A stretch of DNA of 64,000 bases. Origin: Labrys wisconsinensis (GTDB lineage: Bacteria > Pseudomonadota > Alphaproteobacteria > Rhizobiales > Labraceae). A program made the position numbers and the translations under genes. The stretch covers positions 124,001 to 188,000 of the forward strand of contig NZ_JAUSVX010000006.1 of assembly GCF_030814995.1 (NCBI RefSeq). The letters run 5' to 3'. Below the pieces are notes generated by a model, which worked only from the letters and a program-made list of their open reading frames with translations, searched no databases and was not told where the DNA came from. This document shows, piece after piece, positions 7,958 through 60,236 of this stretch (positions are counted from its first letter, which is position 1; each line of letters starts with the position of its first letter).

Positions 7958-7990
7958 CCATCCCGGACGAGGCCCAGGACGGGAAGCGGG

Positions 7991-8026
7991 GGCGCGGCCG
8001 CGGGGGGAGAGGCCCGCGGCCGCGCC
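7991..8026 (-). other. Strong intergenic hairpin after the binding-protein gene
   Basis: A perfect 14-base-pair inverted repeat (7991-8004 with 8013-8026) with an 8-base loop lies just after the stop codon of the BMP gene. There is no T-tract on the minus strand, so it is not a classical terminator. Such hairpins behind binding-protein genes commonly protect the upstream message and give more binding protein than membrane components; that role here is inference. Confidence 0.65.
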
Positions 8027-8029
8027 GCC

Positions 8030-9034
8030 TCACTTCGCCTTGGCGATCTGGATCTTGCCAGCGGCGATATCCGTGCGGATCGCCTCGAGCTTGGTCTTGA
8101 CCGCTTCGGGAAGCTTGGCGCCGATGTCGTCGCAGATCTTGACCTCGACGCCGCCCGAGGCGAGGTCGAAGGTCCGCGTGCCCGGCAGGACCTTGTGGCC
8201 GTCGACCTCGTCCTTGATGATGGAATAGACCGCGACGTCGCCGCGCTTGAGCATGCTGGCCAGCACATGGCCGGGGGCGGAGGCGCACATGTCGATGTCG
8301 ACGCCGATCGAATATTTGTCGGCGGCGGCGCTTGCCTGCATCACGCCCTCGCCGGTCGGGCCGGCGACGTTGTAGACGATGTCGGCGCCCTGGCCGTAGA
8401 GCGTCATGGCGAGCTCGCTGCCCTTGGCCGGATCGTCGAAGGTGCCGGCGAACACCGCGTTCACCTTCACGTCGGGCGCGGCATATTTCGTGCCCTGCTC
8501 GTAGCCGCCGAGGAAGTTGCGGATCACCGGGATGTCGCGGCCGCCGACGAAGCCGATCGCCTTGCCGTCGCCGATCTTGTCGAAGGAGGAGCCGAGGTCG
8601 GCCACCATGCCGGCGAGGGCCCCGGCGACGAAGGAGCCCTGCTCCTCGGCGAAATTGGCATAGATCATCGACTTGGAATCGAGCACGCCGTCGATGAAGA
8701 TGAAGCGCTGGTTGGGATAGGCGGCGCTCGCCTTCTGCAGCGCGTCGACCAGCTCCCAGCCCATGACGAAGATCAGGTCGTACTGGCCGCTCTTGGCGAG
8801 GTTGGCGAACTGCTCCTCGTAGTCGAGGGCGCGGTTGCCGGTATCGACCAGCTTCAGGTCGATGCCGAAATCCTGCTTGGCCTTGTTGAGGCCGTTGACG
8901 ATCGAGACGCCGAACCCCTGGGCGAAATAGCCCGAGATCGCCGCCACCGAAACCTTCTGCGCGGCGGCTGCCGGCAGCGCCGAGGCTGCCGCGAGCGTTC
9001 CCGCGAACACGATGCGTGCAAGGATGCGGATCAT
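8030..9034 (-). CDS. BMP family ABC substrate-binding protein
   Basis: A 334-residue periplasmic binding protein of the basic membrane protein (Bmp/Med, PF02608) family, which delivers nucleosides or related ligands to an ABC importer. The first 23 or so residues (MIRILARIVFAGTLAAASA...) are a Sec signal peptide. There is no lipobox cysteine, so it should be soluble. Family features include DLIFVMGWELVDALQKA, and FVGGRDIPVIRNFLGGYEQG near the middle. The ATG at 9034 was chosen because a purine-rich AGGAAGGGGA lies upstream and the signal peptide starts there. It is the first gene of the minus-strand operon running to 2373. Confidence 0.9.
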   Translation of the reverse strand: MIRILARIVFAGTLAAASALPAAAAQKVSVAAISGYFAQGFGVSIVNGLNKAKQDFGIDLKLVDTGNRALDYEEQFANLAKSGQYDLIFVMGWELVDALQKASAAYPNQRFIFIDGVLDSKSMIYANFAEEQGSFVAGALAGMVADLGSSFDKIGDGKAIGFVGGRDIPVIRNFLGGYEQGTKYAAPDVKVNAVFAGTFDDPAKGSELAMTLYGQGADIVYNVAGPTGEGVMQASAAADKYSIGVDIDMCASAPGHVLASMLKRGDVAVYSIIKDEVDGHKVLPGTRTFDLASGGVEVKICDDIGAKLPEAVKTKLEAIRTDIAAGKIQIAKAK

Positions 9035-9103
9035 GGAGGTTCCCCTTCCTGCGCCTTTTCGGCTCTTATCCATCCCGCGCCATTCTTCGTCGCGCTGGGA
9101 TCA

Positions 9104-9147
9104 TTGATGGTCCAACGAATTTATGGATAGATCGCGACAACTGTCAA
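9104..9147 (-). promoter_or_regulatory. Promoter and operator copy A before the BMP operon
   Basis: On the minus strand a TTGACA -35 box (9147-9142) is followed by TAAATT at about 9123-9118 as a possible -10. Overlapping and downstream is the 15-mer TTGATGGTCCAACGA (plus strand, 9104-9118). This is a variant of the motif found at 9281, 13057 and 13221 (consensus TTGATGnTCnnACnA). Its place across the start region suggests repression. The binding protein is inferred to be the MarR regulator encoded at 11761-12315. Confidence 0.5.
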
Positions 9148-9253
9148 TCCACGGCTTCGCTCAAGTTTTAGGCTCGTTCGCGCTAAACTCCCGGTATTAT
9201 GCCGGAATATCGGGCTCATCGGATGCTCGCCTCGACGCGAGCCGCCTTGCCGC

Positions 9254-9295
9254 TTGACACCGGCCCCGCCGCGCGGATTGTTGATGCTCGAACAA
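9254..9295 (+). promoter_or_regulatory. Promoter and operator copy B before the PF06684 genes
   Basis: TTGACA at 9254-9259 is a good -35 box. The 15-mer TTGATGCTCGAACAA at 9281-9295 begins 21 bases after it, over the expected -10 region. A GGAGG ribosome binding site (9301-9305) follows directly and then the ATG at 9312, so the untranslated leader must be short. Confidence 0.55.
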
Positions 9296-9311
9296 AAAAT
9301 GGAGGCCGACC

Positions 9312-9896
9312 ATGCCGGAGCCGGCGGTGCGGAAATACGTGGTGCAGGTGGAGGAGATCTTTCACGAGGGCGGGCCGCCCGTCGTCGAGCCGGCGCGCCG
9401 CGCCGCGGTCCTGGCCGTGATCGACAACCCGTTCGCCGGCCGCTATGTCGAGGACATCCAGGGCTTCATGGAGGACCTGAAGCCGCTCGGCCTGGAAATG
9501 GCACGGCGGCTGATCGAGGCGCTCGGCGGCGACCCCGCCCGCATCGAAGGCTACGGCAAGGGCGCCATCGTCGGCGCCGCCGGCGAGCTCGAGCATGCCG
9601 CGCTCTGGCACAATCCCGGCGGCTATGCCATGCGCGAGCGGCTGGGGGGAGCCAAGGCGATCGTGCCCTCGACCAAGAAGGTCGGCGGTCCCGGCACGCG
9701 GCTCGACGTGCCGATCACCCATGTCGATGCCTCCTATGTCCGCAGCCATTTCGACGCGGTCGAGGTCGGCCTCGCCGACGCCCCGCGCGCCGGGGAGATG
9801 GTGGTGGCGCTGGCGATGACCACCGGTCCCAGGGTGCATGCGCGGGTCGGCGGGCTCAAGGCCAGCGAGATCAAGGGCGAGGACGGGCTGCGATGA
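9312..9896 (+). CDS. Amino acid synthesis family protein (PF06684), copy 1
   Basis: A 194-residue protein of the PF06684 family (formerly DUF1185, 'amino acid synthesis'). The name is historical and no reaction is firmly known. Conserved blocks seen are IDNPFAGRYVEDI (about 36-48), YGKGAIVGAAGELEHAA (about 76-92), and VPSTKKVGGPGTRLDVPI followed by YVRSHFD. A GGAGG site lies upstream of the ATG. It overlaps the second copy by four bases. Context with an amidohydrolase and an isochorismatase-fold hydrolase suggests a part in breakdown of a nitrogen compound. Confidence 0.85.
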   Translation: MPEPAVRKYVVQVEEIFHEGGPPVVEPARRAAVLAVIDNPFAGRYVEDIQGFMEDLKPLGLEMARRLIEALGGDPARIEGYGKGAIVGAAGELEHAALWHNPGGYAMRERLGGAKAIVPSTKKVGGPGTRLDVPITHVDASYVRSHFDAVEVGLADAPRAGEMVVALAMTTGPRVHARVGGLKASEIKGEDGLR

Positions 9897-10480
9897 GCGC
9901 GCATATCCGCCGGATCCTCACCACCGTCGAGGAGACGCTGATCGAGGGCGGCCGGCCGGTCGACCCGCCGGTGCGCCGTGCCGTCTGCGCGGCGGTGATC
10001 CGCAACCCCTTCGCCGGCCGCTTCGTGGAGGACCTGTCCAGCCTCAGCGAGATCGGCGCCGAGCTCGGCGATCTGCTGCCGCGCCGCGCCGTGGCGGCGC
10101 TGCGCCAGGCCGGCGGCGCGCCGGTCGAGAGCTTCGGCAAGGCGGCGCTGGTCGGCGAGGACGGCGAGCTCGAGCACGCGGCCGCTATCCTGCATCCTCG
10201 GCTCGGCGCCCCGTTCCGCGACATCCTCGGCGGCGGGGCGGCGCTCATCCCCTCCTCGAAGAAGCGCGGCGGCGTCGGCGCGCCCTTCGACGTGCCGCTC
10301 GGCCACAAGGATGCCGCCCGCGTGCGCAGCCATTTCGACGGCATCGAGGCGCGCGTGCCGGACGGACCGCGGCCCGACGAGATCGTGGTCGCGGTGGCGG
10401 TGGCCGCTTCCGGCCGCCCGCATCCCCGGGTCGGCGGCCTCACCAAGCACGAGATCGAGGGCAAGGACGGCGAGCGCTGA
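9893..10480 (+). CDS. Amino acid synthesis family protein (PF06684), copy 2
   Basis: A 195-residue paralogue of the preceding gene. It repeats the same blocks in order: IRNPFAGRFVEDL, FGKAALVGEDGELEHAA, IPSSKKRGGVGAPFDVPL and RVRSHFDGIEARVPDGPRPDE. The ATG lies in an ATGA overlap with copy 1, so the two products are likely made together and may form a mixed oligomer. The pair looks like an old tandem duplication, since the copies differ at many positions. Function is unknown. Confidence 0.85.
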   Translation: MSAHIRRILTTVEETLIEGGRPVDPPVRRAVCAAVIRNPFAGRFVEDLSSLSEIGAELGDLLPRRAVAALRQAGGAPVESFGKAALVGEDGELEHAAAILHPRLGAPFRDILGGGAALIPSSKKRGGVGAPFDVPLGHKDAARVRSHFDGIEARVPDGPRPDEIVVAVAVAASGRPHPRVGGLTKHEIEGKDGER

Positions 10481-49652: not shown

Positions 49653-51053
49653 CTATGTCAGCTTGCGCTGGAGAAAATCGTAGAATCGCGGGTCGTCCGC
49701 CCGGGACACATTGATCCGGATGCCCCTGGCAAGCGGATGGGTCTTGTCGACGCAGAACACGCTGCCGGGGGCGATGAAGATGCTCTCCCGGGCGCCGTCC
49801 CGGGCAAGCGCGATATCGTCGGCGCCCGGCGGAAGCTGGAGATAGAGGTAATATCCGCCGACGCTGTCGCTGAAGATTCGATGGCCGGCCTGCCGCAGCT
49901 TCGATTGCACGCGGCCCGATGCCGTCTCGATCCGCTGGCCCAGGCGCTTCAGGTGCCGGTCGTAATGCCCGCCCGCGAGCAGGTGGTGCAGCAGCCGCTC
50001 GACATAGCCGGAGCTGTTGACCGTCGTCAGCATTTTGAGCTCGGCGAGGGCCGCAATCCTGTCCGCGCGCGTGGCGATGAAGCCGGACCGCAGGCTCGCC
50101 GACAGGGTCTTGGAGAACGTGCCGATCGAAATGACGTTGCTCAACTGGTCGAGCGTCGCCAGCCTGTTGCCGGAGGCGATCGGCAGGTCGACGAAAGGAT
50201 CGTCCTCGACCAGCACCAGGCCATGCCGGTTGGCGATCGTCAGGATCGCATGCGCCACCGGCAGCGTCACCGAGCCGCCGGTCGGGTTGTGGCCGAGGGA
50301 CTGCGTGAAGAACAGCTTTGGCCGTTCGCCGGCCGCCTTGGCCGCCAGGTCCTCCGGGCTCGGTCCGTCCGGCGTGCGGGTGACGCCGACCATCCGGACC
50401 TGCGCCAGGGTCAGCTTGGCGAACAGGGGATAGTAGCCGGGCTCGTCCACGAGCACGGTGTCGCCGGGCGACAGCATGGCGCGGATGATCAGGTCCAGCG
50501 CGTGGTTCGCCCCGAAGGTCAGAAGGATGTTGTCTTGCCCGGCCTGGATCTGCTGGTCGGCGAGACGCCGCGCCAGCTGCTGCCTTAGCGGCAGGAAGCC
50601 GAGGGCCGAGCCATAGGCATCGGCGTCCGCCGACAGGGCGCCGCCAGGGGCGCCGAGATGACGCCGGATCTCGGATTGCTCCGTCCATGACGGCGGCGGC
50701 CGGCCGTCGCCGACGCGGATCTGGAAGCTCTGCTCGAGCTGGGCGCCGAGAAGCGAGGCGACGTCGACCGCCTCCGCGACGTGCTTCGGCCTGGAACTGG
50801 CGGCGGCGTCCGCGGCGGCGGCCACGACGAAGCCCGACCCGGCTCTCGCCGCGATATGGCCCGAGGCCACCAGCCGGTCATAGGCCTCGACGATGGTGTT
50901 CTTGGACACGCCGAGCTCCGCCGCGGCCCTGCGGATCGACAGGAGACGGCTGCCCGGCGACAGTGCGCCGCCGGCGATCTCGCCCTGCAGCTTGCGGACG
51001 ACGCCGTCCACCAGGGTCGCAGGCTGCGCGCTCCGTTCGCCACCGGCTGCCAT
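49653..51053 (-). CDS. MocR-type GntR/aminotransferase regulator
   Basis: A 466-residue fusion of a GntR winged helix (about 10-80: [20 protein letters not shown], then [28 protein letters not shown]) with a fold-I aminotransferase-like domain. The PLP lysine is in [16 protein letters not shown], with DEPGYYPLF and [11 protein letters not shown] upstream as in active aminotransferases. MocR regulators use PLP and an amine or amino acid to control neighbouring genes. The ATG at 51053 has GGGAGGG upstream. It is divergent from the mvaA operon and is the likely regulator of that operon. Confidence 0.92.
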
Positions 51054-51251: not shown

Positions 51252-52616
51252 ATGGGGAGGACGGCCTTGAGCGGCTCGGAGACGGGTGCAGCGCGCCCGG
51301 CGATCACTTCGCAGGGCGCAGCGCGACCTGCGATCAATTCGCGGCTGGAGAACCTGCGCAATCTCGTCCCCGCCGAACGGCTCGGGAAGGTCGCTGAGGC
51401 CGTCGCTCTCGGTGACGGCGAGCTGGAGGCTCTCGGCCGCGGCGGGCTGCCGCTCGCGCTCGCCAACGGCATGATCGAGAACGTCATCGGCACGTTCGAG
51501 CTGCCGCTGGGCATCGCCACCAATTTCACCATCAACGGCCGCGACTACCTGATCCCGATGGCGGTCGAGGAGCCCTCGGTCGTGGCGGCCGCCTCCTACA
51601 TGGCCCGCATCGCCCGAGCCCATGGCGGCTTCCAGACCTCGAGCAGCGCGCCGATCATGCGGGCGCAGGTGCAGGTGCTCGATGTCGCCGATCCCCACGG
51701 CGCCCGTGCTCGCGTCCTGAAGGACCAGGACGCGATCATCGCCGCCGCCAATGCCAGGGACAAGGTGCTGATCTCGCTCGGCGGCGGCTGCCGCGGCATC
51801 GAGGTGCATGTCTTCGACCGCACGCCCGTCGGCCCCATGCTCGCCGTCCATCTCATCGTCGACGTGCGCGACGCGATGGGCGCGAACACGGTCAACACCA
51901 TGGCCGAGACCGTGGCGCCGATCATCGAGCGGATCACCGGCGGCGTCGTCCGGCTGCGGATCCTGTCGAACTACGCCGACCTGCGCCTCGCCCGCGCGGC
52001 GGTGACCGTCCCGCCCGAGGCGCTGAAGACCGAGGATTATGCCGGCGAGCGCATCGCGCGCGGCATCGTCGAGGCCTGCGCCTTCGCCATCGTCGATCCC
52101 TACCGGGCGGCGACCCACAACAAGGGCATCATGAACGGCATCGATCCGATCGTGGTGGCGACCGGCAATGACTGGCGCGCGATCGAGGCCGGCGCGCATG
52201 TCTGGGCAGCCCGGTCCGGCCGGTATACCGCGCTGTCGAACTGGGAGATCGACGGGAAGGGCCATCTCGTCGGCACGCTGGAAATGCCGATGGCGCTGGG
52301 GCTGGTCGGCGGCGCCACCAAGACCCATCCGGCCGCGCGCGCCGCCCTCAAGATCCTGGGTGTCCAGAGCGCCCAGGAACTGGCCGAGGTCGCCGTCGCC
52401 GTCGGGCTGGCCCAGAACATGGCCGCCCTGCGGGCGCTCGCGACCGAAGGCATCCAGAAGGGCCACATGGCGCTGCACGCGCGCAACATCGCCATCGTCG
52501 CCGGCGCCGCCGGAGATGAGATCGAGACGGTCGCCGGCGCGCTGGCGGCCGACCACGATGTCCGCGTCGACCGGGCCAAGGAGATGCTCGAAGCCCTGCG
52601 CGGCGGCAAGGGCTGA
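51252..52616 (+). CDS. mvaA: Hydroxymethylglutaryl-CoA reductase, class II (mevalonate degrading)
   Basis: A 454-residue class II HMG-CoA reductase. In bacteria that grow on mevalonate the enzyme runs in the oxidative direction: mevalonate plus CoA plus 2 NAD gives HMG-CoA. All four catalytic residues of the Pseudomonas mevalonii enzyme have counterparts: Glu107 (VEEPS), Lys291 (THNKG), Asp307 (TGNDW) and His405 (KGHMALHA). [10 protein letters not shown] and [10 protein letters not shown] are also present. The protein is longer at the N-terminus by about 24 residues, which contain a ten-residue direct repeat ([10 protein letters not shown] / [10 protein letters not shown]). The ATG at 51252 has AGAGGA upstream. 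First gene of the operon. Confidence 0.94.
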
Positions 52617-52620
52617 GACG

Positions 52621-53631
52621 ATGAGCGCGCCCGCCGCCGAGGACATCCCCAGGCCGTTCCATCTCCGGATGCTGCGCAGCCAGGAAGGCATCGTGCTGGC
52701 GCTAGCCATCCTCGCCTTCCTCATCTTCTCCGTGCTGCTCCCGGGATTTCTCAGCCCCGGCAATCTCCTGGTGCTGGTGCGGAGCGTCTCCATCCTCGGC
52801 ATCCTGGCGCTCGGCATGGCGCTCGTCGTCATCGCCCGCGGCATCGACGTTTCCATGATCGCCATCATGGTCGTGTCGGTGTCCTGGGCCTTCGTCATCA
52901 CCCGCGCCGGCTATCCCTTCGCACTCGCCCTGCTGATCGGCGCCGGTTTCGCGCTCATCGCCGGCATGCTCATCGGCGCATTGATCGCCTTCGGCGACGT
53001 GCCGCCGATCTTCGCCACCCTTGCAGCGGGCTCGGTGATCTACGGCACCGGCCGGACGTTCTTCTTCACCCTGGAGATGCAGAACGTGCCGCCGGACACC
53101 GACTGGTTCAGCGTCATCGGACAAGGCAGCCTCTTCGGCATTCCCATCACCGTCGTCGCTTTCGCCGTGCTGTGCGGCCTGTTCCAGTTCGTGCTGCGGA
53201 GCACCCGCTTCGGCTGGATGATCTACGCCATGGGCAGCAATCCGGGCGCGGCCCGCGTCACCGGCATCCCGTTCCGGCCGATGACGGTCGCCCAATATGC
53301 GATCAGCGCCTTCGTCGCCTACATCGCCGGGCTGATCCTTGCCTCCTCGGCAGCGGCGATCAACGCCCGGCTTTTCAACTCGACGATGATTTACGACATC
53401 CTGCTCGTCGTCGTGCTGGGCGGCATCGGCCTCAATGGCGGCCATGGCAGCGTGCGCAACGTCGTCCTCGGCACCGCCTTCGTCGGCATCCTGCTCAACG
53501 GCATGACCATCCTGAACATCGACTACACGATCCAGAACCTGGTCAAGGGCGTGGTGCTGCTCCTGGCGATCGTCGTCGATTCCCTCGTCAATCCCCGCGA
53601 CGAGCAGACGTCGCAGCAGGGGGACCTCTAG
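52621..53631 (+). CDS. ABC transporter permease, ribose type
   Basis: A 336-residue permease of BPD_transp_2 (RbsC-like), with ten or so hydrophobic segments. Typical blocks are LALGMALVVIARGIDVSM (near 62-79) and VLGGIGLNGGHGSVRNVVLGT (near 270-290). It starts four bases after the mvaA stop, so it is in the same operon and probably translationally coupled. It should heterodimerise with the fused permease encoded two genes on. Proposed substrate is mevalonate, mevalonolactone or a related compound. Confidence 0.88.
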   Translation: MSAPAAEDIPRPFHLRMLRSQEGIVLALAILAFLIFSVLLPGFLSPGNLLVLVRSVSILGILALGMALVVIARGIDVSMIAIMVVSVSWAFVITRAGYPFALALLIGAGFALIAGMLIGALIAFGDVPPIFATLAAGSVIYGTGRTFFFTLEMQNVPPDTDWFSVIGQGSLFGIPITVVAFAVLCGLFQFVLRSTRFGWMIYAMGSNPGAARVTGIPFRPMTVAQYAISAFVAYIAGLILASSAAAINARLFNSTMIYDILLVVVLGGIGLNGGHGSVRNVVLGTAFVGILLNGMTILNIDYTIQNLVKGVVLLLAIVVDSLVNPRDEQTSQQGDL

Positions 53632-53660: not shown

Positions 53661-54677
53661 ATGAAAAAAGCACGTCTGACGAAACTGGCGCTCGGCATGG
53701 CCGTGCTCGCCGCCGGCCTGTCCTTCGCCAAGGCCCAGGACAAGGGCTTGGAAAACCCGCGCAGCACGGCGTTCCATACCTCGCTGAAGGACAAGAAGGT
53801 GGTGTTCGTGCCGCTGTCCATGGGCTTCGACCTGACCGAGGGTTGGGCGGCGCAGATGCGCCGGCAGGCCAGCCGGCTCGGCTACAGCTTCGAGATCCGC
53901 GATCCCGCCTGGAGCACCGACGCCGGCACCAAGGCGATCCAGTCGCTGATCAGCGAAAAGCCCGACCTGATGGTGATCCACAATCCCGACATTCAGTCCT
54001 ATGCCCGGCTGCTCAAGCAGGCGCAGGCGGCCGGCATCAAGATCGTCCAGATCAACCTGGAATCGAACACGACGACCGACTCCTATGTCGGCGCCGACTG
54101 GACCGAGATCGGCAGGACGGCGGCCGAGGCCATCGTCGGCAAATGCGACAAGGGCAAGGGCATCTCGACCAAGGTGGCGATCGACACCGGCGTGCCGACT
54201 GCCGCCTCCGACGTCTTCCAGCTCGACGGTATCTACAAGGTGCTGAGCGCCCATCCCGACATCCAGGTCGTTTCGCAGCAGGCGACCGAATACAATCCGG
54301 AAAAGGCCCGCTCGATCATGGCGACGGTGCTGCAGCAGCATCCAGACCTCTGCGGGGGGATCGGCATCTGGGACAACCAGGACACCGGCACCGCCTCGGC
54401 GATCAAGGAAGCCGGCAAGAGCGACCAAGTGTTCCTGGTCACCAGCGGCGGCGGCAACAAGGTCGGCTGCGAGAATGTCGAGAAAGGCTTGTTCAATCTC
54501 TACATCAGCTACAACGTGCCGCTGCAGGGCGACCTGCTCAACCAGGAGATTGCCAGGCTCCTGATGTCCGACAGCCCGGCGGGAGAGGTGAAGACCATGT
54601 ACTTCAATCCTCTCACCCTGATCACCAAGGCCAATGTCAACCAGCGCAACTGTTGGACGCTCGACGATCTGAAATAG
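53661..54677 (+). CDS. Periplasmic binding protein, ribose type
   Basis: A 338-residue binding protein of the Peripla_BP_4 fold. A signal peptide covers about residues 1-25 (MKKARLTKLALGMAVLAAGL, cleavage near AKA-QD). The core begins KKVVFVPLSMGFDLTEGWAAQMRRQ. The ligand pocket cannot be read from sequence, but it differs from sugar binders in having IRDPAWSTDAGTKAIQSLI, with TDAGTK where ribose binders have a related motif. A strong GGGAGG site precedes the ATG. Position inside an HMG-CoA operon makes mevalonate or its lactone the leading ligand guess. Confidence 0.87.
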   Translation: MKKARLTKLALGMAVLAAGLSFAKAQDKGLENPRSTAFHTSLKDKKVVFVPLSMGFDLTEGWAAQMRRQASRLGYSFEIRDPAWSTDAGTKAIQSLISEKPDLMVIHNPDIQSYARLLKQAQAAGIKIVQINLESNTTTDSYVGADWTEIGRTAAEAIVGKCDKGKGISTKVAIDTGVPTAASDVFQLDGIYKVLSAHPDIQVVSQQATEYNPEKARSIMATVLQQHPDLCGGIGIWDNQDTGTASAIKEAGKSDQVFLVTSGGGNKVGCENVEKGLFNLYISYNVPLQGDLLNQEIARLLMSDSPAGEVKTMYFNPLTLITKANVNQRNCWTLDDLK

Positions 54678-54689
54678 GCGAGCGGGGTC

Positions 54690-56801
54690 ATGGCAGAGAG
54701 CAACGCGCTGACGCGGTGGCGCTATAGGTATCTCTCCGGCCGCCTGGTCGGAGAGATCCTGTCCAAGAGCTGGATCGACAGCGCGATCCCGGTCGTCGCC
54801 CTCCTGGTGACGGCCGCCGTCATGGCGTTCCTGATCCCGGGCCTGCTCAAGCCGGCCTATGTCGCCGACCTCTCGCGCCAACTCGCCGAATTCGGCCTGG
54901 TCGCTCTCGCTCTCACCATCGTGCTCCTGTCGGGCGGCATCGATCTCTCCGTCGGATCCGTGTTCGCGCTCTGCGTGCTGGCGGCGCTGTCCGGCGTGAA
55001 TGTCCTGGCCCTGCCGTTTCCCGTCGCGCTCGGCATGACACTCGGCGTCGGCCTCGTCTGCGGCCTCATCAACGGCGTCCTGATCGGCTATCTCCGGCTG
55101 CGCGCCTTCATCACCACCCTGGTGACCCTGGTCATCTACCGCGCCATCTACGACATCGTCTTTCCCCGCCTGGCGAGCGCCATCGTCGGCAGCACGCCGG
55201 ACTCGCCGGGCTGGGACTTTCTCGGTTTCGGCGCCGTCCATGGCGTGCCCGTGTCCTTCCTGATCTTCGCCCTCATCGCGGTCGCCCTCCATATCACGCT
55301 GTCCCGGTTGCGGCCCGGCTGGCGCCTGCGGGCGGTCGGCGGCGCGCGCAAGTCCGCCTACAATGCCGGCATCGACGTCAAGCGCACCGTCTGCATGGCC
55401 TATGTCTCGTCCGGCCTGCTGACGGCGGTCGCCGCCTTCCTGTTCGCGGCACGCCTCGGCAGCACCGGCGCCGATACCGGCATCGGCCTGGAGATCTCGG
55501 TGCTGACGGCCGTGGTGCTGGGCGGCGTGTCGCTCGGCGGCGGCCGGGGCTCGGTCGGCAGCGCCATCATCGGCGCGATCCTGGTGCTGATCCTCACCAA
55601 CGGCCTGATCCGCCTGTCGACGCCGGGCTCGGTCAACCAGCTGCTGCTCGGCCTGATCCTGATCCTGGCGGTGCTCTTCGACGCCAAATGGGTGAAGAAT
55701 CGCGGCAAGATCCTGAGCAAGGTCTATGTCTCGCCGACCTACCTCGCCCTGCCCGAGCAGGCCGGTGCGCACGGCGACACCTTCGCCCTCAACGACCGCC
55801 TCGGCGATGTCGAGCTGATCGGCCTCGGCGAGGTGGAAGGCCCGGAGGACGTCGTCCTCGACCGGGACGGCCATCTCTACACCGGCACGCGGCACGGCAC
55901 GATCGTGCGTTTTCTCGCTCCCGACTACGGGAGGCACGAGGTCTTCGCCCGGATCGGCGGGCATCCGCTCGGCCTCTGCTTCGCCGCGAACGGGGATCTC
56001 CTGACTTGCGTGGGCGGCATGGGCGTCTACAAGGTCGGCCCCGACGGCACCGTCGCCAAGGTCACCGACGAGACCAACCGCAGCTGGCTCTCGGTCATCG
56101 ATGATTCCAGGCTACGCCTGCCCGACGACCTCGACGTGGCGCCGGACGGCCGGATCTTCTTCAGCGAGGCGACGATCCGCTACGAGATGGCGGACTGGGT
56201 GGTCGATGCGCTGGAGGGCCGCGGCAATGGCCGGCTGATCTGCCACGATCCCGCGACCGGCAAGACCCGCACGGTGCTGCGCGGCCTGATCTTTCCCAAC
56301 GGCATCACCATCTGCCGCGACGGCCAGTCACTGCTGTTCGCCGAGACCTGGGCCTGCCGGATCTCGCGCTACTGGTTCGACGGCCCGAACAAGGGGCGGA
56401 CGGAAATCTTCATCGCCGACCTTCCCGGCTATCCCGACAACATCAACCGCGGCTCCGACGGCACCTATTGGATCGCGCTGCTGGGCCTGCGGACGAAGAC
56501 GTTCGATCTCGCCATGCGCAAGCCCGGCTTCCGCCGCCGCATGGCCCGCCGGATCGCGTCCGACGAATGGCTGTTTCCGAACGTCAATCGCGGCTGCGTC
56601 GCGCAGGTCTCGGAAGAGGGCAGGGTGCTTCAGGTGCTGTGGGACCGCGGCGGCGAGAACCATCCCTCGATCACGTCCACATGCGAGCACCGGGGCTATC
56701 TCTATCTCGGCGGCGTCTCCAACAACCGCATCGGCCGCATCCGCCTGCCCGGCGCCGATCCCGACTGGACGGCGCGGCGCGACACTTGGGGGAAGGACTG
56801 A
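54690..56801 (+). CDS. Fusion of ABC permease and strictosidine-synthase/SMP-30-like propeller
   Basis: A 703-residue protein in one uninterrupted frame. Residues 1-335 are a ribose-type permease (LALTIVLLSGGIDLSVGSVFAL; VVLGGVSLGGGRGSVGSAIIGA). A linker of about 40 residues (WVKNRGKILSKVYVSPTYLA...) leads into a beta-propeller at about 375-703. It has features of the strictosidine synthase / APMAP / gluconolactonase superfamily: SEATIRYEMADWVVDALEGR, FPNGITICRDGQSLLFAETW, LPGYPDNINRGSDGTYWIAL. Since permeases of this type end in the cytoplasm, the propeller should face inward, placed to act on the substrate as it enters. Relatives are lactonases or esterases, so lactone opening is the leading idea. 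Stop overlaps the next start (TGATG). Confidence 0.9.
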   Translation: MAESNALTRWRYRYLSGRLVGEILSKSWIDSAIPVVALLVTAAVMAFLIPGLLKPAYVADLSRQLAEFGLVALALTIVLLSGGIDLSVGSVFALCVLAALSGVNVLALPFPVALGMTLGVGLVCGLINGVLIGYLRLRAFITTLVTLVIYRAIYDIVFPRLASAIVGSTPDSPGWDFLGFGAVHGVPVSFLIFALIAVALHITLSRLRPGWRLRAVGGARKSAYNAGIDVKRTVCMAYVSSGLLTAVAAFLFAARLGSTGADTGIGLEISVLTAVVLGGVSLGGGRGSVGSAIIGAILVLILTNGLIRLSTPGSVNQLLLGLILILAVLFDAKWVKNRGKILSKVYVSPTYLALPEQAGAHGDTFALNDRLGDVELIGLGEVEGPEDVVLDRDGHLYTGTRHGTIVRFLAPDYGRHEVFARIGGHPLGLCFAANGDLLTCVGGMGVYKVGPDGTVAKVTDETNRSWLSVIDDSRLRLPDDLDVAPDGRIFFSEATIRYEMADWVVDALEGRGNGRLICHDPATGKTRTVLRGLIFPNGITICRDGQSLLFAETWACRISRYWFDGPNKGRTEIFIADLPGYPDNINRGSDGTYWIALLGLRTKTFDLAMRKPGFRRRMARRIASDEWLFPNVNRGCVAQVSEEGRVLQVLWDRGGENHPSITSTCEHRGYLYLGGVSNNRIGRIRLPGADPDWTARRDTWGKD

Positions 56802-57880
56802 TGGGATTCTTCTCGAGCCTGGCCGGCCTGTTCGGCCGTGGAGACGAGGATGTCCTCAGCATCCCGGCCATGGACGGCGTGTTCAAGCCCAACGCGCGGC
56901 TCGACAGCACCGAGGCTATCCTCGGCCTGCCAGGGCTGGACAACCTCGCCGCCGGCCCGGGCGCGCTTTATTGCAGCAGCGTAGACACGGTGTTCCGCAT
57001 TGACCCGAAAGCCGGGCGCGCCGAGCCGGTCCGGACGTTCGGCGGCGCCGTGACCATGATCGCCGCATCCCCGGCCGGCCGGCTCGCGGTCGGCGTCGAA
57101 GGCATCGGCGTGGAACTGCTCGATCAGAGCGAGTGGCGCCGCTTCGATCTTCCTGCCGACTGCGCGTCCTGCGTCACCGCGGGCCTGTTCCGCGGCGAGG
57201 ACGAGCTCTGCCTGGCGATCGGCTCCCGTGTCCATGCCGCGTCGGACTGGAAGCGCGATCTGATGAGTCGTGGCTCGACCGGAGCCGTAATACTTTGCCG
57301 GCTATCGATAGGAGCGTGCGAAATCGTCAGGGAAGGCCTCGCCTTTCCCTACGGCCTGGCCGTCATGGCCGATGGCGCTCTCGCGGTGAGCGAAAGCTGG
57401 CGGCATCGGGTTCTGTCCCTGCCGGCGCGGGCGGGATCGGCGGAAGAGGTGCGGATCGGCGATCTTCCCGCCTATCCCGCCCGGCTCTCCCCGGCTTCGG
57501 ACGGCGGCTTCTGGCTGGCGCTCTTCGCCCCGCGCCGCCAGCTGACGGAATTCGTGCTCGTCGAGGATGACTATCGCCGCGAGATGATGGCGACGATCCC
57601 GCCGCAGGCCTGGATCGGTCCCGACTTCGCCGATGGCGACGAGGAGCAGCCGCTGCAGGCCGGGTCCGTGCGGCAGATGGGGATCATGAAGCCCTGGGCG
57701 CCGTCGCGCTCCTACGGGCTGGTCGCCAGGCTCGACCGGGACATGCAGCCCGTCGCCAGCTTCCATTCCCGCGCCGACGGCCGACGGCACGGCATCGCCT
57801 CAATCGTCGAATTCGAGGGGCATCTCTACGCGGCGTCCCGCGGCAGCGGCACGCTGCTTCGGATCGGCGACCCGACATGA
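56801..57880 (+). CDS. Free-standing strictosidine-synthase/SMP-30-like propeller protein
   Basis: A 359-residue protein related to the propeller part of the fused gene upstream, but diverged. It keeps the segments GLAFPYGLAVMADGALAVSESWRHRVLSL and IGDLPAYPARLSPASDGGFWLALF, which align with FPNGITIC, LPGYPDNI and TYWIALL of the fusion. In place of the DN pair of LPGYPDN, usually a metal ligand, it has ARL, so it may have lost activity. No signal peptide is seen; the start MGFFSSLAGLFGRG may be amphipathic. Overlaps both neighbours by one and four bases, so it is part of the transporter unit. Confidence 0.82.
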   Translation: MGFFSSLAGLFGRGDEDVLSIPAMDGVFKPNARLDSTEAILGLPGLDNLAAGPGALYCSSVDTVFRIDPKAGRAEPVRTFGGAVTMIAASPAGRLAVGVEGIGVELLDQSEWRRFDLPADCASCVTAGLFRGEDELCLAIGSRVHAASDWKRDLMSRGSTGAVILCRLSIGACEIVREGLAFPYGLAVMADGALAVSESWRHRVLSLPARAGSAEEVRIGDLPAYPARLSPASDGGFWLALFAPRRQLTEFVLVEDDYRREMMATIPPQAWIGPDFADGDEEQPLQAGSVRQMGIMKPWAPSRSYGLVARLDRDMQPVASFHSRADGRRHGIASIVEFEGHLYAASRGSGTLLRIGDPT

Positions 57881-59373
57881 CCGACATCGTCGAATTCCGG
57901 GACGCGACCAAGTCGTTCCGCGGCGTCGCCGCCTTCAGCCATGTGAACTTCGCCCTGCGCAAGGGCGAGGTCCATGCCCTGCTGGGCGAGAACGGCGCGG
58001 GCAAGTCGACCCTCACCAAGGTGCTCGCCGGCCTCTACCCCCTGACGTCGGGGGCGATGCTGGTGGAGGGCGTGGCGCGGACATTCGCCTCGCCGGCGGA
58101 CGCCCTCGCCAGCGGCGTCGCCATGGTGTTCCAGGAGACCAACCTCATTCCGTCGATGACGGTGGCCCAGAACCTCTTCCTGGGCGAGGAGAGCTTCTTC
58201 AACCGGCTGCGCGGCGTCAACATCAGGGCCCAGCAGCATCTGCAGCGCCTGAGCTTCCACGTCGAGCCGACGGCGCTGGTCTCCTCGCTCGGCGCCGCCA
58301 AGAAGCAGATGGTCGAGATTGCCCGGGCCGTGCAGCATCGGGCGCGCATCTTCATCTTCGATGAGCCGACCGCGACGCTGACCCCGGAGGAGAAGCAGCA
58401 TTTCTTCACGCTGGTCGAACGCCTCAAGGCCGATGGCGCCTCGATCATCTTCATCTCGCACGCGCTGGAGGAGGCGCTGGCGATCGCCGACCGCATCAGC
58501 ATCCTGCGCGACGGCGAGCTCATCGTCACCGACGAGACCCGGACCTTCACCCGCGACCGCATCATCCAGGCCATGGTCGGCCGCCAGCTCAAGGACGAGC
58601 TCTACGGCACGGCACGGACGCGCAAGGCCAGGCCGATCGGCCGCAAGGTCCTGGCGCTCGAGAACGTCTCCATGGGCAAGGCGGTGCGCAGCGCCACGCT
58701 GTCGGTCTTCGCCGGCCAGGTCACCGGCATGTTCGGCCTGGTCGGGGCGGGGCGGACGGAAATGATGAAGATCGCCGCCGGCGTCCTCAAGCGCGACCTC
58801 TTCCACGGCGGCCGCGTCAAGCTGAACGGCGAGAGCGTGCGCTTCAGCGTTCCGCGCAGCGCGGTGAGGCGGCGCGTCGCCTATGTCACCGAGGACCGCA
58901 AGCTCGACGGCCTCTTCGACACCATGGGCATTTCCCAGAACATCTTCCTGGGCAGGCTCGCGAGGGGAAGCAACCCCTTGTCGGTGGTCGGCATGGGTGA
59001 GGCCCGTGAGGCCGCGTCCGAATGGATCGAGAGGCTCAACATCCGGACGATCCGCCAGGGCGCCAAGGTCGTCGAGCTCTCCGGCGGCAACCAGCAGAAG
59101 GTGGTGATCGCCAAGAGCCTGATCCAGAGTCCGGACCTGATCATCTTCGACGAGCCGACGCGCGGGGTGGATGTCGGGGCGATCGCCGAGATCCATGCGA
59201 TGATCCAGGGCCTCGCCGATGCCGGGGCGGCCGTGGTGGTCATCTCTTCCTATCTCCCGGAAATCCTGGCCATATCGGATCGTATCCTGGTCGCCAAGCA
59301 GGGGCGTATCATCGAGGAGATGTCGATCGAGGAGGCGAGCGAGGAGAAGATCATGTACGCGGCGGTGCACTGA
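57877..59373 (+). CDS. ABC transporter ATP-binding protein, ribose type (RbsA-like)
   Basis: A 498-residue tandem ATPase. Domain 1 has Walker A GENGAGKST near residue 37, a changed signature (LGAAKKQMVEIARAV instead of LSxxxxQ) and Walker B IFIFDEPTATLTPEE. Domain 2 has the degenerate Walker A GLVGAGRTE, a normal signature LSGGNQQKVVIAKSL and LIIFDEPTRGVDVGA. It would drive the importer formed by the plain and the fused permease. It overlaps the propeller gene by four bases and the lyase gene by one. Confidence 0.92.
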   Translation: MTDIVEFRDATKSFRGVAAFSHVNFALRKGEVHALLGENGAGKSTLTKVLAGLYPLTSGAMLVEGVARTFASPADALASGVAMVFQETNLIPSMTVAQNLFLGEESFFNRLRGVNIRAQQHLQRLSFHVEPTALVSSLGAAKKQMVEIARAVQHRARIFIFDEPTATLTPEEKQHFFTLVERLKADGASIIFISHALEEALAIADRISILRDGELIVTDETRTFTRDRIIQAMVGRQLKDELYGTARTRKARPIGRKVLALENVSMGKAVRSATLSVFAGQVTGMFGLVGAGRTEMMKIAAGVLKRDLFHGGRVKLNGESVRFSVPRSAVRRRVAYVTEDRKLDGLFDTMGISQNIFLGRLARGSNPLSVVGMGEAREAASEWIERLNIRTIRQGAKVVELSGGNQQKVVIAKSLIQSPDLIIFDEPTRGVDVGAIAEIHAMIQGLADAGAAVVVISSYLPEILAISDRILVAKQGRIIEEMSIEEASEEKIMYAAVH

Positions 59374-60236
59374 TGGACGACGACAGGACGGTCACCCTTG
59401 TCGAGGTCGGACCGCGTGACGGCCTGCAGAACGAGAAGGCCGTCATCGCGACGCAAGACAAGCTTGCGCTGATCGAGCGTCTGGCCGATGCGGGCTTGAC
59501 CCGCATCGAGGCGACGGCCTTCGTCTCGCCGAAATGGGTGCCGCAGATGGCGGATCACGATGCGGTCATGCGGGGCGCCCGGCGGCGGCCCGGACTGACG
59601 CTCTCGGCTCTCGTTCCCAACGAGAAGGGCGCGGTCGCGGCCATTGCGGCCGGCGCCCAGGAATTGGCGGTGTTCGCCAGCGCGTCGGAGAGTTTCGCGC
59701 GAGAGAATACCAATTGCACCATCGCCGAGAGCATCGAGCGCTTCGGGCCCGTGCTGGCCCTGGCGCGGACGCATCGGCTTCCAGTCAGAGGTTATGTCTC
59801 CTGCGCGGTCGATTGTCCCTATGAAGGGCCGATCGCGCCGGCCATGGTGCGCGCCGTCGCGGAGCGCCTTCTGGACATCGGCTGCGCGGAGATCGCCGTC
59901 GCCGACACGATCGGCCGGGGCACGCCGGAGCGGGTCGACGCCATGCTGGCTGATGTGATCGAGGCCGTGCCGATCGGACGGCTCGCCTGCCATTTCCACG
60001 ACACGTCCGGCCAGGCGCTGGCCAATATCGACGTGGCGCTCGGGCACGGCATCCGCATCGTCGACAGCGCCATCGGCGGGCTGGGCGGGTGTCCCTATGC
60101 GCCGGGCGCGGCCGGCAATGTCGCCACGGAACGCGTGGTCGCGCACTTGGCTTCGTTGAGATACGACACCGGCGTCGATCCCGACAAGCTGGCCGTCGCC
60201 AGGGCCTTTGCATCAGGTCTGAAGACTGCGAAATAG
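59373..60236 (+). CDS. mvaB: Hydroxymethylglutaryl-CoA lyase
   Basis: A 287-residue TIM-barrel lyase that splits HMG-CoA into acetyl-CoA and acetoacetate. The N-terminal motif VGPRDGLQNE gives the catalytic arginine and metal aspartate (Arg15, Asp16). The metal histidines are in CHFHDTSGQALAN (His207, His209), and the catalytic cysteine is Cys240 in the GLGGCPYAPGAAGN loop. All signature residues are present. The ATG overlaps the ATPase stop. As last gene of the operon it completes the route that starts with mvaA. Leucine breakdown also uses this enzyme, but no leucine-degradation genes are nearby. Confidence 0.95.
   Translation: MDDDRTVTLVEVGPRDGLQNEKAVIATQDKLALIERLADAGLTRIEATAFVSPKWVPQMADHDAVMRGARRRPGLTLSALVPNEKGAVAAIAAGAQELAVFASASESFARENTNCTIAESIERFGPVLALARTHRLPVRGYVSCAVDCPYEGPIAPAMVRAVAERLLDIGCAEIAVADTIGRGTPERVDAMLADVIEAVPIGRLACHFHDTSGQALANIDVALGHGIRIVDSAIGGLGGCPYAPGAAGNVATERVVAHLASLRYDTGVDPDKLAVARAFASGLKTAK

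Follow-up and report, generated by a model that had tools for sequence, protein, structure and literature searches.

Why should the channel subunit of an importer carry an enzyme-type domain at its end? The question is raised by a gene of Labrys wisconsinensis (Alphaproteobacteria; assembly GCF_030814995.1), located at 54690..56801 on the + strand of a window of 64,000 nucleotides (contig NZ_JAUSVX010000006.1, positions 124,001 to 188,000). Its product joins a ribose-type permease of an ATP-binding cassette (ABC) importer to a six-bladed β-propeller of the strictosidine-synthase-like (SSL) type; the next gene encodes a second, diverged propeller. The answer favoured here, with a probability of roughly 0.4, is that the importer has a built-in hydrolase-type station at its inner mouth, indifferent to the cargo, together with a twin that lacks the site. 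Read from sequence, this would define an ABC importer family of some size, apparently not described before, with an enzyme/pseudoenzyme pair of propellers at the cytosolic mouth. The propeller would have been moved inside by permease fusion and duplicated, one copy keeping its metal site and the other being inactive, and the pair would treat every cargo alike, through either a common ester or lactone opening or a common gate.

The fusion is real. Positions 54690–56801 translate into a single open reading frame of 703 amino acids, free of internal stop codons. In Pfam, residues 60–328 match BPD_transp_2 (E 3.9e-31), 365–408 SSL_N (61.5 bits), 409–599 SGL (52.5 bits) and 479–565 Str_synth (E 6.2e-21, 74.8 bits), all above the curated cut-offs. 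Together with an AlphaFold2 (AF2) model, these matches assign the transmembrane permease part to residues ~1–345 (54690–55724, + strand) and the propeller to residues ~370–703 (55797–56798, + strand). The model was built on 79 natural sequences and has a mean predicted local distance difference test score (pLDDT) of 81.7 and a predicted template modelling score (pTM) of 0.62. In it, the last transmembrane helix (313–335) is followed by a short helix (338–345), a joining stretch (346–359) of low confidence (linker pLDDT < 50) and, from ~370, the propeller. The preliminary description of this locus had recognised the fusion and put the junction near residues 335–375; both hold, the junction now lying at ~336–370. 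Three residues of the joining stretch, Y346, P349 and N368, do not vary in any of the 79 aligned rows.

Three full-length copies are present in the L. wisconsinensis genome, the two outside the window having 62% and 59% identity to it. (The same genome gives 145 matches to the fusion protein at E 1e-5, mostly to the permease part only; these are other ribose-type permeases.) A whole-protein search at E 1e-80 recovers the fusion in 5 of 60 relatives and in 7 of the 289 genomes from the class, with the window's own genome counted in both figures, and a propeller-only search at E 1e-25 gives a match in 32 of 398 members of the phylum. In this phylum survey, 19 matches with at least 55% identity, from 11 genomes, all lie within single frames of 707–840 amino acids. 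There are 23 remoter matches (31–42% identity); 20 are in frames of 358–438 amino acids, too short for the fusion, and the remaining three, whose frames are long, proved on inspection to have no permease match. Two further rows at 31% identity are the second propeller. In the survey, then, the fusion is scattered and not common.

A pattern scan of a one-genome-per-species collection yielded at least 573 propeller relatives, and the best 79 loci were retained. From 77 of these, 78 full-length fusions were aligned with that of the window to give the 79 rows; one locus contributes two (L033), and a truncated one (L038) and one with a frame break in the permease part (L057) were left out. This frame break, within the stretch 7959–10053 of a metagenome-assembled contig, is at about residue 55 and not at the junction. 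In viral contigs the pattern matched 22 times, and none of the matches was a relative. Sixteen plasmid records were recovered, all from Proteobacteria, and 13 of them were read; overall, fusion-bearing importers occur in alpha-, beta- and gammaproteobacteria. Of the plasmid records with a full-length match, 12 are annotated; ten of these label the product 'SMP-30/gluconolactonase/LRE family protein', a name that hides the permease, and two label it a permease, which hides the propeller. Adding four plasmid records (L023–L026) and 14 other genome loci to the 79 from the scan gives 97 loci for comparison; in none of them was a split, two-gene version of the module seen.

What kind of propeller has been attached? 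Among solved structures it matches rice TGW6 best (8kg3; Z 33.0, rmsd 2.6, 278 aligned residues, 28% identity), followed by strictosidine synthases, DFPase (Z ~31), the RPA3624 lactonase (Z 30.5), Drp35 and PON1 (Z ~28); the structure-match listing for the whole fusion model is likewise occupied by propeller matches. The putative calcium positions of TGW6, Glu59, Asn167, Asn226 and Asn272 (PMC10958001), align with E386, D479, N537 and N584 of the fusion. Each is invariant in 79/79 rows, so that at the sequence level four hydrolase-type metal-ligand positions are conserved; the preliminary description had held that their absence would count against an enzyme. Two of the four are acidic (E386, D479). 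According to the authors of the TGW6 study, two acidic ligands are a feature of the Ca2+-binding members, not of TGW6 itself (PMC10958001). In a set of 19 sequences from the genome surveys and plasmids, 14 have Asp at position 479 and five have Asn. This Asn479 subgroup (L011, L012, L017, L019, L026), in which the motif DPNDCD replaces L[AP]DD[LVC]D, may differ in its metal or ligand. Eight fusion positions match the docking pocket of TGW6. L427, L477 and W503 are invariant (79/79), F535 is kept in 77/79, position 553 is Thr or Ser in 77/79, and M500, V504 and A507 are variable. The pocket is more variable in the set of 19, with Asp at position 477 in five, and it differs little between modules that have different neighbour genes.

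By the normal topology of such permeases the propeller would sit at the inner mouth of the channel, as the preliminary description had proposed, and the charge distribution over the 79 sequences points the same way. Lysines plus arginines average 4.84 per sequence in the segment at the N-terminus; the stretch of ten residues that follows the last transmembrane helix has 3.85, and loops l1, l5, l7 and l9 each have 0.13 or less. Loops l4, l6 and l8 are positive, and neither l2 nor l3 contains a lysine or arginine. Under the positive-inside rule, this makes the fused propeller and the C-terminus probably cytosolic. A periplasmic propeller is disfavoured by this distribution, although the relatives encoded by separate genes look extracytoplasmic: 13 of 14 separate bacterial SSL proteins start with one or two charged residues followed by a hydrophobic segment (one N-terminus is unreadable), which suggests that they lie outside the cytoplasm.

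The preliminary description overlooked the second propeller gene (56801..57880, + strand, 359 amino acids), which any mechanism must explain. The window's protein, searched alone, has no match in Pfam or NCBIfam, and 34 of 75 members of its family match Str_synth. Its assignment as a diverged relative of the fused propeller is based on an AF2 model (pLDDT 90.2, pTM 0.89), a fold match to TGW6 (Z 30.0, rmsd 2.9, 274 aligned), a profile-profile comparison with the fused propeller (99.9%, E 3.1e-37) and its neighbourhood. In the 289 genomes of the class it occurs at full score 11 times, each directly beside one of 11 fusions (11/11). With ligand positions assigned through the profile-profile comparison, at least two metal ligands are missing: the Asn is kept in only 16/75, and the Asp position is always occupied by Gly, Ala or Ser (75/75). 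The Glu position is mostly still acidic (Asp 61/75, Glu 7/75). Judged by its metal ligands, the second propeller does not look like an active SSL enzyme.

In the window the ATG of the second propeller overlaps the stop codon of the fusion by one base (TGATG). All 12 annotated plasmid records likewise begin this gene before the fusion has ended, with four shared bases in 11 and eight in one; together these overlaps suggest translational coupling. The plasmid annotations were used for this comparison because the starts chosen for helix analysis were those nearest the fusion stop. At the N-terminus, the helical hydrophobic moment averages 0.58 over 72 sequences against a background of 0.32 (sd 0.14), a value reached by ~5% of background windows. 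The window's protein has no transmembrane-like stretch (maximum 19-residue hydropathy 1.4). Sequence features of this kind would fit a protein that lies on the membrane surface through a short amphipathic N-terminal helix, and the second propeller may do so.

Both propellers belong to a module of five genes, the others being a partner permease (permease A), a binding protein and a double-ABC ATPase. Permease A (52621..53631, + strand; start codon read off the open reading frame) is of the ribose type, matches BPD_transp_2 (E 2.2e-28) and has no propeller. The periplasmic substrate-binding protein (53661..54677, + strand) matches Peripla_BP_4 (E 1.9e-40), its start being placed at the signal sequence MKKARLTK. 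The ATPase (57877..59373, + strand) is of the RbsA/AraG/XylG type by Pfam and NCBIfam; ABC_tran is found in two stretches of one chain, and the match to AraG/RbsA-type models is full-length. No named substrate-specific family (RbsC, AraH, GguB and others) fits the permease, the best NCBIfam score being 142 bits against a cut-off of 398, and permease, ATPase and binding protein are below the cut-off of every NCBIfam equivalog listed (for the ATPase, the best 25 of 191). The module is complete in 92 of the 97 loci, and the five incomplete ones (L038, L058, L063, L065, L077) miss parts at contig ends. Among nine further plasmid records, seven are annotated with all five genes, one ends after the second propeller and one is unannotated. 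The five genes are inherited together; the pairwise distances of the six module parts, which correlate at 0.77–0.93 over the 79 rows, fit this. Modules can also occur in tandem (L033 14678–18872, L034 14741–19075, L091 15300–19076, and the upstream ends of L085 and L105).

How the parts of the module diverge bears directly on the role of the propeller. Over the 79 rows, mean pairwise identity is 67.6% for the fused propeller and 67.1% for the ATPase, 56.9% for permease A, 55.4% for the fused permease part, 51.3% for the binding protein and 43.0% for the second propeller. Since these rows had been picked by their propeller, the ranking was redone on 14 modules outside the window that were found with the whole protein. 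Median identity to the window is then 62.5 for the propeller, 60 for permease A, 59.5 for the ATPase, 51.5 for the fused permease part, 43 for the binding protein and 40 for the second propeller; these loci are short, permease A and the ATPase were compared on parts only, and a size filter left 12/14 second propellers. The propeller is still highest, but little above permease A (62.5 vs 60). A cargo-specific enzyme would be expected to show the opposite, namely less conservation than the binding protein and both permeases. A propeller as constant as the ATPase, beside a drifting binding protein, most plausibly has the same role whatever the cargo.

The favoured mechanism can be put together from these parts. 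A ribose/CUT2-type ABC importer would have two unlike permease halves, A being plain and B carrying a cytosolic C-terminal propeller, and the choice of substrate would be seated in the binding protein and the permeases. Most likely, the fused propeller would act as a broad ester or lactone hydrolase that opens or releases the incoming cargo. The inactive second propeller would be a structural or regulatory partner, possibly on the same membrane face.

Several points weigh against this mechanism. Ligand conservation proves neither a metal nor catalysis, as TGW6 itself illustrates: no bound Ca2+ was found in it, yet the protein hydrolyses a conjugate of indole-3-acetic acid and glucose (PMC10958001). 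D583, adjacent to N584, may be the fourth ligand, and it is replaced in 2/79 rows. The hydrolysis of varied cargoes accounts for so constant a pocket no better than a fixed ligand or partner would. As to topology, loop l2, which should be inside by simple alternation, has no lysine or arginine; a phmmer search with residues 1–337 found no solved homologue of the permease part at E 0.01, so that the sidedness is read from charge; and relatives that are apparently extracytoplasmic would make a cytosolic fused propeller a change of side. The relative placement of the two domains is of low confidence, given the pTM of 0.62 and the poorly modelled linker. Finally, among the titles and abstract openings listed in a literature search, in which subscription papers are sparsely covered, there was no experiment on any family member and no description of the fusion protein.

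Much of the same evidence could be explained if the propellers were a gate or regulator of the importer and not enzymes. The fused one would bind a common ligand or metal, with the pseudo-propeller as its partner, and the pair would influence the ATPase or permease, for instance through trans-inhibition by an intracellular metabolite. This reading is only slightly less probable. The equal conservation of fused propeller and ATPase, with the other parts lower, fits such a device, as do the top rank of the propeller in the 14-module set (if closely followed there by permease A and ATPase), the presence of a partner propeller without metal ligands beside every fusion seen, and the small change in the pocket across contexts. 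What speaks for the hydrolase-type station instead is that the hydrolase metal positions are kept in 79/79 rows, which would be superfluous in a purely structural domain; in addition, the literature searched on the fusion turned up no ABC regulator with a propeller fold.

A more specific role had been suggested in the preliminary description, in which the propeller would open imported mevalonolactone as a lactonase and so trap it as mevalonate. It draws its appeal from the genes around the window's module. Upstream lies a degradative (NAD-type) 3-hydroxy-3-methylglutaryl-coenzyme A (HMG-CoA) reductase (51300..52616, + strand; TIGR00532, 443 bits vs cut-off 260; exact start uncertain), and downstream an HMG-CoA lyase (59373..60236, + strand; NF004283, 408 bits vs cut-off 246). 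A MocR-type regulator, combining GntR with an aminotransferase fold (Aminotran_1_2), is divergent from these (49653..51053, − strand); the starts of lyase and regulator were read off the open reading frames. The regulator is present in 13 of the 14 loci with the reductase. These 14 are drawn from all 97 loci, many of them too short to show the gene, and the lyase stands alongside in 11 of them; two loci (L038, L040) have the lyase without the reductase. Two of the tandem arrangements, L033 and L034, involve the mevalonate-linked module: behind it and its HMG-CoA lyase comes another set of permease A, binding protein and fusion.

A quick tree (Shimodaira–Hasegawa-like approximate likelihood ratio test only; L023 and L057 not included) unites the window with 11 other reductase-linked modules in a single clade (support 100), and the reductase association requires two changes on it against an average of 12.2 for shuffled labels. 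In Alcanivorax (L094), reductase and lyase adjoin a module of a separate branch, a possible second recruitment for mevalonate. Because its clade is linked to degradative HMG-CoA reductase and HMG-CoA lyase, the cargo of the window's copy is probably mevalonate or its lactone, uptake here being read from genetic linkage. No mevalonate ABC importer was described in the literature searched on mevalonate uptake and catabolism, within the same scope of titles and abstract openings.

The mevalonate part of the earlier proposal thus fits the operon, as a unit of mevalonate import and breakdown; the part that made the propeller a dedicated lactonase fares worse. In its favour are, besides the operon, the metal positions and a superfamily that includes lactonases such as RPA3624. 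Of the 78 loci in which 3.9 kb or more of sequence precedes the fusion, however, the reductase is present in 13 and absent from 65, including both other copies in the window's genome (L021, L022), and these modules, adjoining other catabolic genes, have the same propeller, with identical metal positions and a pocket that is for the most part unchanged; it diverges little with context. Moreover, mevalonolactone opens readily in water according to a review (PMC13064465), so that an enzyme for this step is not obviously needed. With the module lacking a reductase in 65/78 loci and the propeller conserved about as well as the ATPase, a cargo-independent hydrolase or gate is the better explanation, and a dedicated mevalonolactone lactonase is unlikely; opening of mevalonolactone may still be one reaction of a broad propeller enzyme.

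The other modules have neighbours of other kinds. Clustering over 84 loci, within the fetched flanks, gave (number of loci in parentheses) short-chain dehydrogenases (34), AMP-binding CoA ligases (27), aldehyde dehydrogenases (17), MmgE/PrpD proteins (15), class III CoA-transferases (11), zinc alcohol dehydrogenases (10) and enoyl-CoA hydratases (10); eleven cluster representatives were annotated, two of them without a family match. These families point to the catabolism of alcohols, acids or CoA-linked compounds, and no cargo common to the other modules emerged from the clustering. The modules read thus stand among catabolic genes, and the propeller pair is probably cytosolic and membrane-held, which would suit a scaffold that docks cytosolic catabolic enzymes on the importer for channelling and has no chemistry of its own. 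The adjoining enzymes, however, vary between modules while the propeller hardly does, and the metal positions are fixed; such a scaffold is highly improbable. That a missed stop codon or frameshift has merged two genes is effectively ruled out by the independent copies and assemblies: the L. wisconsinensis genome alone has three copies, and another 78 full-length sequences, from 77 other contigs, show the two parts joined in the same way.

How does the hydrolase-type station compare with systems already known? What is new is a variant of a known importer type and not a new kind of transporter. ABC importers are generally regarded as pumps apart from metabolism. If the proposal is correct, the module offers an accessible system for studying how transport is coupled to chemistry, or else a new gating device, with an enzyme-type domain covalently built into the channel and a diverged twin; it also names a likely bacterial importer of mevalonate. 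With the ribose/CUT2 importers (RbsABC, AraFGH, XylFGH) it shares the BPD_transp_2 permease, the Peripla_BP_4 binding protein and the two-cassette ATPase. Unlike them, it has an extra propeller gene and a pair of dissimilar permease genes, one of which encodes a C-terminal propeller, and dehydrogenases and CoA enzymes are frequent neighbours.

Similarly, the mevalonate-linked copy resembles Pseudomonas mevalonii-type mevalonate catabolism, the genes of which are named mvaA and mvaB, in combining a degradative HMG-CoA reductase with an HMG-CoA lyase; here, in contrast, these are linked to an ABC module and a MocR regulator. Among solved propellers, the SSL hydrolase TGW6 is closest, sharing the SSL_N and Str_synth profiles, the fold (Z 33.0, 28% identity) and the four metal-site positions. 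Unlike TGW6, the fused propeller is transporter-linked and probably cytosolic, has D479 in place of Asn167 and, where TGW6 has His192 in its docking pocket, a Trp503 that is invariant in 79/79. DFPase, Drp35, PON1 and the RPA3624 lactonase have the same six-bladed fold (Z 28–31, 14–20% identity) and, to our knowledge, are not fused to a transporter. The separate bacterial SSL genes (L117–L135) are a natural comparison set for the fused propeller. Their products have 31–42% identity to it and the ligand pattern E, D, N, D (one of 14 rows is without the first two positions). Unlike the fusion, they are encoded by a gene of their own, begin with a hydrophobic segment (13/14) and have no permease, and none of the 14 aligned keeps the His658 of the fusion.

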